Assembly: GCF_014697355.1 (NCBI RefSeq) | Contig: NZ_JACJRQ010000021.1 | Location: forward strand, 62,001-126,000 | DNA length: 64,000 nt | Source: Nostoc calcicola FACHB-3891 | GTDB lineage: Bacteria > Cyanobacteriota > Cyanobacteriia > Cyanobacteriales > Nostocaceae | Reading direction: 5' to 3' | Shown here: piece by piece, positions 12,322 to 64,000 of the stretch | How positions within the stretch are numbered: the first letter of the stretch is position 1 | Layout: each line of letters starts with the position of its first letter | The notes under the pieces: generated by a model | Databases searched by the model: none | Told to the model about the DNA's origin: nothing | Seen by the model: the letters and a program-made list of their open reading frames with translations, nothing else | Translations under genes and position numbers: made by a program

Positions 12322-12361
12322 GGGGAGTGGGGAGTGGGGAGTGGGGAGTGGGGAGTGGGGG
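12322..12361 (+). repeat. GGGGAGT heptamer array, five copies, between tuf and rpsJ
   Basis: Five perfect tandem 7-bp units plus a partial unit. This STRR-type repeat lies inside a highly expressed operon, between the tuf hairpin and the rpsJ start. Confidence 0.9.
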
Positions 12362-38104: not shown

Positions 38105-38503
38105 TTAGTCAAAGCTACTGCTGCCAGAGTCACAGCTACTACTGCCGGAATCATAGCTACTACTGCCAGAGTCGCAGCTACTACTGCCTGAATCATAACT
38201 ACTATTGCCGGAATCATAGCTACTGCTGCCGGAATCATAGCTACTGCTGCCAGAGTCGCAGCTACTACTGCCGGAATCATAGCTACTATTGGAGTTGTAG
38301 TTACTGCTATTAAAGTTATAGTCACTACTAGGGTTATATATCTGAGCATCACCAACAGATGAACTACTGGTGCTATTACTAGAAGAATTACCAAAGTAGC
38401 CTCTACTGCTTTTATGGGAATTCTTTTTAGTGGGTGAAGCAGCATCTTTGATGAGAGCTATAAAGCCCAGGACAATCAGTGAAAATACGATCAAGCTCCA
38501 CAT
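38105..38503 (-). CDS. Small membrane protein with Ser/Tyr/Cys-Asp-Ser-Gly repeats
   Basis: A 132-residue protein. The N-terminus MWSLIVFSLIVLGFIALIKD is a single membrane segment or uncleaved signal. A Lys/Ser linker follows, then about ten tandem copies of a (Y/C)DSGSSS unit, encoded by an imperfect 21-bp tandem DNA repeat (38110-38290). Cys and Tyr alternate at the variable position. Extreme composition means coding status rests on the intact frame, the hydrophobic start and the AGGAGAGG-like sequence before the ATG. Function unknown; surface or scaffold role is a guess. Confidence 0.65.
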   Translation of the reverse strand: MWSLIVFSLIVLGFIALIKDAASPTKKNSHKSSRGYFGNSSSNSTSSSSVGDAQIYNPSSDYNFNSSNYNSNSSYDSGSSSCDSGSSSYDSGSSSYDSGNSSYDSGSSSCDSGSSSYDSGSSSCDSGSSSFD

Positions 38504-38924: not shown

Positions 38925-40679
38925 TCAGGTGTCTTTTCTGATTTCGTCTAACTTGGCACGCACTGCTTGGATATCCTGCCACATCAACCATTTAGGCGCA
39001 CCTCTTTCTTTAGAAGGGTTACGCAACAAATAAGAAGGATGAAAAATTGGCATACACAAACGTCCTTCCCACTCTAGCCACTGTCCACGAATTTTCGTAA
39101 TCGCCCGTTTATCGCCAGTCAAACCTTTGAGCGCTGTTGCACCTGTTAGGAGAATGATTTTGGGGTCAACTAGACGAATTTGTTCTAGTAAGTAGGGTTT
39201 GCAAGCCGTCATTTCTTGTGTAGTAGGTACACGATTCTCAGGTGGGCGGCAATTATGTACAACACCTGCGGGTGTCACAAAATTGGCTGTGTCTTCAACA
39301 TCAATGCAGTAAACTACGTCAAAATCTGGCTTTGGTGGTAATAGTTTTTTAATAACTGGTTTCCAGTAGGTGACAACTGCTTCTTCTTGATAAGCTTCTA
39401 TGTTAAATGGAATACTATGCAGTTCCTCTGGTAATTTATATCGCATAGAGGCAGGAATGTATTCAGCAATATTTTCTAAAAAGCGAATGCCTTCACCATA
39501 TCTAAAAAATAGTCTCCAAGTAGACTTAAAAACTGCGTATGTTCTGTAGCCTTGAGTCTCAAAATATTTAACAACTTTTTGAGCCGTTTCTGGTGTGATG
39601 TCTCCTAAAGCAATTTCAACATCAATACTTTTTCTTATTTGCCCATCTTTGGTCTTTCTTCGCCAATAGCCATCATCCATGTACCAAATAGCTAACCCAA
39701 AGTTGTCTAGTTTTTCTAGTGCTGTTATGGGAAAATCTTTTTTATTATTGGGATACCATTCCTCGTGTAGGTCGTGCAAATAATAGGTTTTTGCCAGTCC
39801 CATGCTCAGAGATTGATAAGTTTTGCCATTTTGTGACTTGGCTAGATATTCTTTTACCTGTGGTCGAAAACCATTTAATACTCTCGCTTTGAGTTTTAAA
39901 TAAGCTGCTTGTTGAATACTATGATTTTCCAAAAACTGACCACTGGAACTAATACAAGCATCACCTAGTAAAGACCCTAGTAATACTTGCAACCCTCTGC
40001 TTCCAGGAGCAGGTGTACCAGTCGCAACTAAGTCATCGTCTTGTAATTCTTCAACGGGAATCCAGCCTCTACGGGTAAGTACTGGATGATCTGCTGTGGC
40101 AATATAGCCAACTTCACCTTTGTTGTTACATTTACCATCTGGAAAAAAGACTTTGTAAAGCTGCCTTCCTGCGAGCTTAGACCGATACCAACCAGTCACT
40201 TGTTTCCAAACCAAGCTGCCATTAGGATCGACACTCAACACTTTACCTGACCACTGATTTTTGACAATCCAGTTAAGTCGTTTAGAACCTTCTTCTGTGA
40301 TGATTTTCGTATAACCATCGAGACATTTATTGATATTGGCAATGTATACATCTTGCTCAGTACTCAAATTCACAGATGCGAGAATTTTCTCTAGCAATTG
40401 TCCTGATTTGCCCACAAATGGTAAACCCGTTTCGTCTTCATTTTGACCAGGGGCTTCTCCTACAACCATTATTAGTGCTTTGAGGTTACCGCGTCCGACA
40501 ACAGCATGGGTACGAGTGTCTCCCAGTACACATCGGTGGCAGCGATCGCAATGCTGCGCTAACTCTGTCATCGCCGAATAGGTTCCTGGAGGGATAGGAA
40601 TTTTAGCGTCTGTGGGAATAAGTTCTTGTTGGTTAAAGCTTGAGTCGTCGAAGAGGCTGAGTTGGTTTTCGCTGCTCAT
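38925..40679 (-). CDS. Family 4 (4Fe-4S) uracil-DNA glycosylase interrupted by an intein
   Basis: A 584-codon frame. Residues 1-118 and 477-584 together form a 226-residue type 4 uracil-DNA glycosylase, which removes uracil from DNA at the start of base-excision repair. The uracil-binding motif GEAPGQNED lies at residues 74-82, and the second motif HPSYLLR near the end. Fe-S ligand candidates are Cys44/Cys47/Cys50, Cys477 and Cys493. Between them, residues 119-476 are a complete intein. The frame is unbroken, so the precursor should be made whole and spliced. The insertion divides the KCRPPENR motif precisely between Lys118 and Cys477. Divergent from the phosphoribosyltransferase gene. Confidence 0.95.
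   Translation of the reverse strand: MSSENQLSLFDDSSFNQQELIPTDAKIPIPPGTYSAMTELAQHCDRCHRCVLGDTRTHAVVGRGNLKALIMVVGEAPGQNEDETGLPFVGKSGQLLEKILASVNLSTEQDVYIANINKCLDGYTKIITEEGSKRLNWIVKNQWSGKVLSVDPNGSLVWKQVTGWYRSKLAGRQLYKVFFPDGKCNNKGEVGYIATADHPVLTRRGWIPVEELQDDDLVATGTPAPGSRGLQVLLGSLLGDACISSSGQFLENHSIQQAAYLKLKARVLNGFRPQVKEYLAKSQNGKTYQSLSMGLAKTYYLHDLHEEWYPNNKKDFPITALEKLDNFGLAIWYMDDGYWRRKTKDGQIRKSIDVEIALGDITPETAQKVVKYFETQGYRTYAVFKSTWRLFFRYGEGIRFLENIAEYIPASMRYKLPEELHSIPFNIEAYQEEAVVTYWKPVIKKLLPPKPDFDVVYCIDVEDTANFVTPAGVVHNCRPPENRVPTTQEMTACKPYLLEQIRLVDPKIILLTGATALKGLTGDKRAITKIRGQWLEWEGRLCMPIFHPSYLLRNPSKERGAPKWLMWQDIQAVRAKLDEIRKDT
39252..40325 (-). other. Intein with LAGLIDADG homing endonuclease (358 aa)
   Basis: A self-splicing protein element. 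Block A starts at the invariant Cys1 (CLDGYTKIITEEG); block B is IATADHPV with TxxH (His80); block F is VYCIDVEDTANFV; block G is VVHN followed by Cys+1, with penultimate His and terminal Asn present. Between them lies a dodecapeptide endonuclease: P1 LLGSLLGDAC (115-124) and P2 LAIWYMDDGY (211-220), each keeping its acidic residue. Both splicing and homing therefore look potentially active. Coordinates verified at codon level: Cys1 codon TGT at 40323-40325, Asn358 codon AAT at 39252-39254. Confidence 0.95.
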
Positions 40680-40881
40680 GAAAATTACAATTTTGGTATC
40701 AGCACCAGCAGTCTTATCTGATTCAAGTTATGTCTTTGGTTGGACAGCGATCAGAAATAGACTTCCCAAATAGAGTTTTACTGAATACTTATTATTTATA
40801 CAAATCTTATTTTATCAGTTAATTTGAGACAAAATTCAGTCATGATAAAAGCAGTGCCGTCCTGAGATGCTGGGGGAAGCC

Positions 40882-41580
40882 ATGTCATATACCCCACTTT
40901 TTGCCGATCGCATCCATGCGGGTGAGGAGTTGGCGCAAGTAATTCACGAGCTTTTGACTCAGCAAACCATTGATTCTGGGGTAAAGCCTGTACCAATTGT
41001 CTATGCTTTGCCAAGAGGTGGCGTACCAGTGGCAGCACCAATAGCACGTCTTTTGGGTTGTCCGTTAACGATAGTTGTAGCCAAAAAAATTAGCCATCCA
41101 GAAAACCCAGAGTTAGCCATTGGTGCAGTTACTAGTTCTGGAAATGTTCTTTGGACTGAGCAAAAGTTATTTCGCCCCAAACATGATGCGCGGTGGCGAG
41201 AACTAGCTTTAAATAAAGCTATTGGACAAGCTAAGTCTTTAGAGGAGCAATTAATTTCTGGTTGTCCCCAGGTGAATGTAGAGAATGCTACAGCGATTTT
41301 AGTTGATGATGGCATTGCCACAGGTATGACTATGGCGGTTGCTGCTACTGCCATCAAAGCCCTTTCACCGGCAGCAATTTGGCTATGTACCCCAGTGGCG
41401 CCACAAAAATTGCTGCCCTGGTTGAATCAATGGGGCGATCGCATTGTTGTCTTGAAGACACCGGAACCTTTCTGGAGTGTGAGTAATTTTTACGCACAAT
41501 TTCCCCAAGTGGACACGTTACAAGCTCTCGGATATCTCCAGCAACAAAAAACAATCGGCAACACTGATTCGTGCGACTAA
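40882..41580 (+). CDS. Phosphoribosyltransferase family protein
   Basis: A 232-residue type I PRTase fold protein. The PRPP loop is AILVDDGIATGMTMA; an earlier flexible loop segment is VYALPRGGVPVAAPIA. The protein belongs to the group often annotated as a putative phosphoribosyl transferase of unknown base. The start at 40882 (MSYTPLFADRI) is chosen because GGGGAA lies directly before it; an upstream ATG at 40867 adds only five residues across that site. Divergent from the glycosylase, it probably has its own promoter. Confidence 0.87.
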   Translation: MSYTPLFADRIHAGEELAQVIHELLTQQTIDSGVKPVPIVYALPRGGVPVAAPIARLLGCPLTIVVAKKISHPENPELAIGAVTSSGNVLWTEQKLFRPKHDARWRELALNKAIGQAKSLEEQLISGCPQVNVENATAILVDDGIATGMTMAVAATAIKALSPAAIWLCTPVAPQKLLPWLNQWGDRIVVLKTPEPFWSVSNFYAQFPQVDTLQALGYLQQQKTIGNTDSCD

Positions 41581-63738: not shown

Positions 63739-63801
63739 GAGTTAGGAGTTAGGAGTTAGGAGTTAGGAGTTAGGAGTTAGGAGTTAGGAGTTAGGAGTTA
63801 G
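63739..63801 (+). repeat. GAGTTAG heptamer array, nine perfect copies
   Basis: Nine uninterrupted copies of the 7-bp unit. This is the longest perfect STRR-type array in the window. Confidence 0.95.
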
Positions 63802-64000
63802 GAATTTCCCCCTTTGCCCCTCTGCTCCCCTGCGTCTTTGGGCGATGGGAGATTGTTTATTTGGAAATCTCGGAGTTAGGAGTTAGAAGTTAGGAGTTAG
63901 GAATTTCCCCCTCTGCCCCTCTGCTCCTCTGCTCCCCTGCGTCTTTGGGCGATCGGAGATTTTTTATTTGGAAATCTCGGAGTTAGGAGTTAGGAGTTAG
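63802..64000 (+). repeat. Tandem ~99-bp duplication ending in GAGTTAG units
   Basis: Copy 1 (63802-63900) and copy 2 (63901-64000) share GAATTTCCCCCT, CCCCTGCGTCTTTGGGCGAT and TATTTGGAAATCTCGGAG. They differ by a small C/T-rich expansion in copy 2 and a few substitutions. Each ends in GAGTTAG heptamers. The array probably continues past the window. Confidence 0.9.

Follow-up and report, generated by a model that had tools for sequence, protein, structure and literature searches.

The cluster of family 4 and family 5 uracil-DNA glycosylases (UDGs) is coordinated by four cysteines, according to an excerpt of PMC5295032. In the window, which is the whole 64,000-nucleotide stretch of Nostoc calcicola FACHB-3891 DNA that was analysed, one gene predicted to encode such an enzyme is interrupted in frame just before the codon for a cysteine that aligns with one of these. 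This raises the question of whether the insert is a functional and mobile intein, and whether the use of a single cysteine for both splicing and cluster binding would be a means of regulating DNA repair or an incidental result of where the intein settled.

The interrupted glycosylase gene

An earlier note on this locus placed the gene at 38925-40679, which is exact; the gene lies on the minus strand, a detail that the note lacked (Table 1). The lengths that it gave, 358 aa for the intein and 226 aa for the joined exteins, also agree with our boundaries. The calculated masses are 66.2 kDa for the precursor, 25.3 kDa for the spliced UDG, and 40.9 kDa for the intein, matching the spliced product of ~25 kDa and the intein of ~41 kDa that had been predicted. 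A predicted structure of the precursor, built from five sequences, had a mean pLDDT of 35 and was set aside.

Table 1. Features of the intein-interrupted udg gene, in window coordinates.
Feature	Position	Strand	Profile
Reading frame, intein-interrupted family 4 UDG precursor, 584 aa	38925..40679 (stop codon 38925-38927)	minus	
N-extein, residues 1-118, with CxxCxxC and motif A GEAPG	40326..40679	minus	
C44-x2-C47-x2-C50; C47 and C50 align with C13 and C16 of Thermus thermophilus UDG (TthUDG)	40530..40550	minus	
Intein, residues 119-476, 358 aa	39252..40325	minus	
Intein Cys1 (residue 119), predicted first splicing nucleophile; Cys in 20/20 distinct inteins here	40323..40325	minus	
Block B TADH (TxxH), residues 195-198; TxDH in 20/20	40086..40097	minus	
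LAGLIDADG_2 domain, residues 231-376	39552..39989	minus	PF03161
First LAGLIDADG motif LLGSLLGDA, Asp240	39957..39983	minus	
Second LAGLIDADG motif AIWYMDDG, Asp336	39669..39692	minus	
Block F Cys458 in VYCIDV, intein position -19; 20/20 inteins at the UDG site	39306..39308	minus	
VVHN, intein C-terminus, residues 473-476	39252..39263	minus	
Cys+1 (Cys477), predicted splicing nucleophile and, once spliced, predicted cluster cysteine; pairs with C84 of TthUDG, numbered on the printed chain	39249..39251	minus	
C-extein, residues 477-584, with motif B HPSYLLRN	38928..39251	minus	
Cys493, paired with C100 of TthUDG (numbered on the printed chain); predicted fourth cluster cysteine	39201..39203	minus	

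The assignment of the host protein to family 4 in the earlier note holds. The precursor scored 163.8 bits with TIGR00758 against a cut-off of 125.3, and two further UDG models, NF040953 and TIGR03914, matched it below their cut-offs. Both exteins align with UDGs of solved structure, namely the family 4 enzyme of T. thermophilus (1ui0) and TM0511 of Thermotoga maritima (1l9g, 1vk2). These proteins match both extein halves and all four cluster cysteines and, unlike the Nostoc UDG, contain no intein. The motif A sequence GEAPG agrees with the GE(A/G)PG given in an excerpt of PMC10359453; the motif B sequence HPSYLL is unlike the HPAAVL given there but fits the HPAYLL of TthUDG.

The region of 1ui0 that aligns with the exteins (residues 8-188) contains exactly four cysteines, and these pair with C47, C50, Cys+1 (residue 477), and C493. 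All six extein cysteines are present in each of the 62 distinct UDG proteins compared. The junction had been placed before the cysteine of KCRPP, described as a 4Fe-4S ligand; the position is exact, and the alignment with 1ui0 makes this residue one of the cluster cysteines. Thus, by alignment and elimination, Cys+1 is predicted to be a cluster ligand, and the Nostoc UDG is predicted to bind a cluster.

Class 1 inteins begin with Cys1 or Ser1, carry a TxxH motif in block B, end in His-Asn, and are followed by a nucleophile at position +1. The Cys1, TxxH, VVHN, and Cys+1 named in the earlier note are all found at the residues listed in Table 1, and Cys1, TxDH, VVHN, and Cys+1 are kept in all 20 distinct UDG inteins that we collected. 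Scores with curated intein profiles were mixed. In a scan of the precursor protein TIGR01443 scored 19.3, above its cut-off of 15.6, and TIGR01445 scored 21.4, below its cut-off of 24.5; in a DNA scan the latter reached 26.1 and was over the cut-off together with neighbouring matches. PF14890 scored 25.7 on the precursor against a cut-off of 35.8 and was likewise below it in all eight inteins scanned. Curated profiles score weakly on the UDG-intein lineage, and the case for an intein rests on the comparison of occupied and empty sites. The insert is in frame and has the same start and end codon in 20 distinct proteins, and the site is empty at this same codon in 42 distinct homologues, which excludes chance. 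This comparison of sequences confirms that the insert is a genuine intein of class 1 type.

We infer from these motifs that the precursor splices. Cys1 would turn the N-terminal peptide bond into a thioester for Cys+1 to attack, and Asn476 would then cyclise, so that the 66-kDa precursor would yield a UDG of 25 kDa and an intein of 41 kDa. Only once spliced would Cys+1 adjoin the N-extein directly and be able to bind the cluster in the normal fold. The further suggestion that the precursor would be unable to hold a cluster before splicing goes beyond the alignment, given that the side chain of Cys+1 is free in the precursor.

The nested endonuclease and the distribution of the intein

Within the intein we found a LAGLIDADG_2 homing endonuclease domain that had escaped the earlier note (PF03161, 73.7 bits against a cut-off of 25, E 2.2e-20). 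The domain is above the cut-off and contains two LAGLIDADG motifs with acidic residues (LGD and MDDG), as is characteristic of this class of endonuclease. We take Asp240 and Asp336 to be catalytic, as in LAGLIDADG enzymes, and the domain is predicted to cut DNA. Its target would be the conserved KC-RPP codons of an empty allele, and repair of the cut would then copy the intein in. Together, these features make it very probable that the insert is a bifunctional intein of class 1 type, that it contains a two-motif LAGLIDADG endonuclease, and that it sits before the third cluster cysteine of the cell's family 4 UDG. As such it is probably a mobile intein, and it adds a host protein and an insertion site to those known for inteins, in a repair enzyme.

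The 20 distinct intein-bearing proteins comprise seven with a full-length intein, all from Nostocaceae, one in which both catalytic Asp residues are replaced, one with a partly deleted endonuclease, and 11 mini-inteins. At a match of E 1e-70 or better, the full form was found in 7 of 217 genomes of Nostocaceae, belonging to 3 of 56 genera. All but one of the mini-inteins (10/11) come from a single family, where they are carried by 10 of its 13 genomes; for one member (G199) a TGA was counted inside the match, and from the length of the match this is its terminal stop. Among 388 sampled genomes of the order Cyanobacteriales, 272 gave UDG matches and at least 15 were carriers, namely three of full length (one of them endonuclease-dead), one partly deleted, and 11 with mini-inteins. 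A class-level sample of 388 genomes contained three carriers at E 1e-75 or better. In a phylum-level sample of 386 genomes, 339 had a UDG match and four carriers were present among the matches listed. The carriers in both samples all belong to Cyanobacteriales. Two genomes outside the order (G407 and G432) had long frames that proved on reading to be intein-free.

Precursors 97% identical to that of the window were found in Nostoc linckia z4, Desmonostoc geniculatum HA4340-LM1, and Nostoc sp. FACHB-973, and one 80% identical in Tolypothrix campylonemoides VB511288. Within the window's own genome (9.03 Mb, 98 contigs) the UDG precursor used as query matched only its own gene. The search for the intein covered genomes of Cyanobacteriota, one contig scan, and plasmid, phage, and viral collections. 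No record in the phage or plasmid collections reached 80% coverage of the precursor among the best 20 of 38 and the best 20 of 436 records, respectively, and a viral scan with the intein as query gave zero matches; a UDG copy with a mini-intein could escape these searches.

Decay states, probable loss, and signs of recent movement

At one site in one cyanobacterial order, the UDG gene thus occurs empty, with a full intein, with an endonuclease-dead intein, with a partly deleted one, with a mini-intein and, judging from the gene tree, probably in a state from which the intein has been lost. The presence of so many decay states at one site within one order makes the homing cycle directly testable. 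Both motif Asp residues are kept in all seven full-length inteins of Nostocaceae. A further full-length UDG intein (L007:1876-2949) has Glu and Arg in place of these residues, and its sequence identifies it as an endonuclease-dead intermediate. In another carrier (L008:1093-1857) the intein is 255 residues long, with the endonuclease partly deleted and the PF03161 match absent. None of the four mini-inteins scanned, of the 11 known, matched PF03161.

We compared dN/dS in the middle segment of the intein. For the window's gene (L001), L004, and L093, the three pairwise values were 0.09-0.12; the three pairs that include the endonuclease-dead L007 gave 0.21-0.26. This points to constraint on the endonuclease, although the contrast is modest, because five close Nostoc pairs gave values of 0.10-0.27 that overlap those of L007 on few changes and because dS in the wider pairs, at 1.0-1.7, is near saturation. 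In three close pairs of mini-inteins, dS was 0.22, 0.56, and 0.76 for the intein and 0.32, 0.54, and 0.65 for the extein. The splicing domains of mini-inteins thus change at about the pace of the extein at synonymous sites, which fits inheritance rather than movement.

A host-gene tree of the 62 proteins needs six changes of label, four of which are forced by well-supported branches. In the mini-intein family, one gene without an intein (L080) lies nested among the carriers with support of 98/86 and 100/93, and two more such genes fall in a node with support of 83/88. These empty genes lie on long branches and the tree traces the gene rather than the species; the simplest reading of it is that the intein was lost inside the mini-intein family. 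A tree of the inteins separates the same main groups as the host-gene tree.

Evidence of recent movement comes from comparing L001 with N. linckia z4 (L002). Synonymous differences between them were 14/233 for the intein, 37/153 for the extein, and 48/165 for a neighbouring phosphoribosyltransferase gene. This is 4-5-fold fewer in the intein than in the host gene or its neighbour (Fisher p 2.1e-7 for extein against intein). Sequence identity falls from 0.97 in the stretch adjoining the insert to 0.88-0.93 over the outer extein, with 0.77-0.94 for segments upstream. Recent homing would give an intein divergence as low as that between these two loci. The intein is also less diverged than the extein when L001 is compared with L003, L005, and L092 (p 0.04, 0.00024, and 0.00025), with 11-18 of 233 synonymous differences in the intein. 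However, these pairs do not on their own demonstrate movement, since the neighbouring gene is also close (9-19 of ~170 differences, 0.05-0.11) and in the pair with L003 is closer than the intein. The seven pairs are not independent of one another. In the window the phosphoribosyltransferase-domain gene occupies 40867-41580, is divergent from udg, and is found near udg in 10 of the 12 loci examined.

Related inteins and the role of the shared cysteine

By TIGR01445, the window's genome contains seven inteins, in GyrB, split DnaE, RtcB, DnaB, a SNF2-type helicase, PEP synthase, and the UDG. The six other than the UDG intein sit on other contigs (L035-L040), and the split DnaE is the DnaE-N part. 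The helicase host belongs to the sll1366 family, which NCBIfam terms intein-prone. The RtcB intein directly precedes the cysteine that aligns with Cys98 of Pyrococcus horikoshii RtcB, which we take to be metal-binding, and the PEP synthase intein precedes a Cys-His pair whose His is presumably catalytic. If Cys98 of RtcB binds metal, this suggests a precedent in the same genome for a metal-site cysteine as the +1 residue. Like the UDG intein, the RtcB intein (NCBIfam RtcB_rel_intein2, NF052663) lies before a conserved host cysteine and has a block F Cys; it differs in its host and in its internal segment.

Among the matches listed, LAGLIDADG inteins of the DNA polymerase of T5-like phages (such as Escherichia phage SelmaRatti) and of a RecA from an Acinetobacter plasmid match over the whole UDG intein (query 119 to 478-484), both in hosts other than UDG and with 25-27% identity. 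The phage polymerase intein, when translated, starts with Cys1, ends in VVHN-C, and contains TPDH, two LAGLIDADG-like motifs, and a block F Cys. The intein of Mycobacterium tuberculosis SufB resembles that of the UDG in having an iron-sulfur host with Cys1 and Cys+1, and it is reported to be redox-sensitive in excerpts of PMC8529194 and PMC8891592. SufB, however, is a scaffold for cluster assembly and not a repair enzyme, and the redox response was measured on SufB, whereas the UDG intein is known from its sequence. The earlier note knew of no intein described in this glycosylase. This stands for the titles and abstract openings of the papers listed, in which none is described, with InBase and the 2016 intein survey outside the scope of that search. 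Nor is a UDG intein described in excerpts of papers on crAss-like phages, phage PaBG, and PolIII and of one on Thermosynechococcus, and an NCBIfam scan of the precursor returned no model for an intein-containing UDG.

We consider it likely that the intein is a plain genetic parasite and that the predicted role of Cys+1 as a ligand is incidental. Inteins would come to lie where the codons of conserved genes vary least and an imprecise loss would be costly, and this reading gives the bifunctional intein described above no further role. It is consistent with the patchy distribution and the full homing cycle, and with the presence of six other inteins in the genome, of which those in RtcB and PEP synthase also precede a host cysteine. 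According to an excerpt of a review, PMC7765530, inteins insert at the catalytic and ligand-binding sites of their hosts. What parasitism by itself leaves unexplained, unless precise loss is rare, is why 10 of the 13 genomes of one family still keep copies that lack the endonuclease.

That persistence would fit a regulatory intein, an alternative that we regard as unlikely. Here the redox, metal, or cluster state would gate splicing and so restrict UDG activity to suitable conditions: while it holds iron, Cys+1 could not attack the thioester, and a disulfide could involve Cys1, the block F Cys, or Cys+1. The alignment of Cys+1 with a cluster cysteine points in this direction, and of the intein cysteines only two, Cys1 and that of block F, are common to all 20 inteins. 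Disulfide-gated splicing has been reported for SufB (Cys1-Cys+1) and for a mycobacterial DnaB intein (excerpt of PMC8529194), and in one family 4 UDG the cluster has been reported to be redox-active on DNA (excerpt of PMC9266487). Against this, a block F Cys also occurs in the T5-like phage polymerase intein and in the RtcB intein of the Nostoc genome; it is therefore not special to the UDG host and looks like a trait of the lineage, which weakens the idea of a special redox role for it. Two family 4 UDGs lost only ~40% of their activity on Cys-to-Ser substitution, and catalysis is possible without the cluster cysteines, according to an excerpt of PMC5295032. Moreover, the element has its own endonuclease and is patchy, with 210 of 217 Nostocaceae genomes lacking an intein-bearing match at E 1e-70, and the host-gene tree is best read as showing losses inside the mini-intein family.

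Dependence on splicing also bears on this question. The intein-bearing udg is the sole PF03167 gene in 12 of the 18 carriers tested (20 known), that is, in the window's genome and 11 of 17 others. The accompanying control search was positive in 13 of 14 genomes, and two carriers, G199 and G218, are outside this count. At least one further PF03167 match accompanies the intein-bearing UDG in G990, G991, G242, G043, G052, and G188. If PF03167 covers all UDG families, as we assume, UDG-based uracil excision in the 12 genomes hangs on splicing, as a regulatory role would favour. In a more specific version of regulation, which we hold to be quite improbable, the shared thiol would form a maturation checkpoint: it would have to splice before holding iron, and oxidation or early iron loading would stall the 66-kDa precursor, tuning the sole enzyme for uracil excision. 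Mini-inteins would then be a parasite kept for the checkpoint after loss of the endonuclease. Whichever reading is preferred, the shared cysteine offers a clean system in which to ask whether cofactor insertion and splicing compete for one thiol. That the intein is instead a dead insertion past splicing, in what is now a pseudogene, is very hard to credit: the PF14890 splicing-domain score below cut-off is in its favour, but all splicing residues are kept, the frame is open, extein dN/dS is 0.08-0.11 in five close Nostoc pairs, and the interrupted udg is the only PF03167 gene of the genome.

Several repeats were seen elsewhere in the window. Downstream of udg, a minus-strand frame at 38105-38503 contains a 21-bp tandem repeat (38109-38288) and is predicted to encode a repeat protein rich in Ser, Tyr, Asp, and Gly, with zero Pfam matches at E 1e-5. 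Short arrays of 7-base repeats lie at 12322, 32370, 48336, 49304, 63731, and other positions, and a 107-base repeat occupies 63766-64000.
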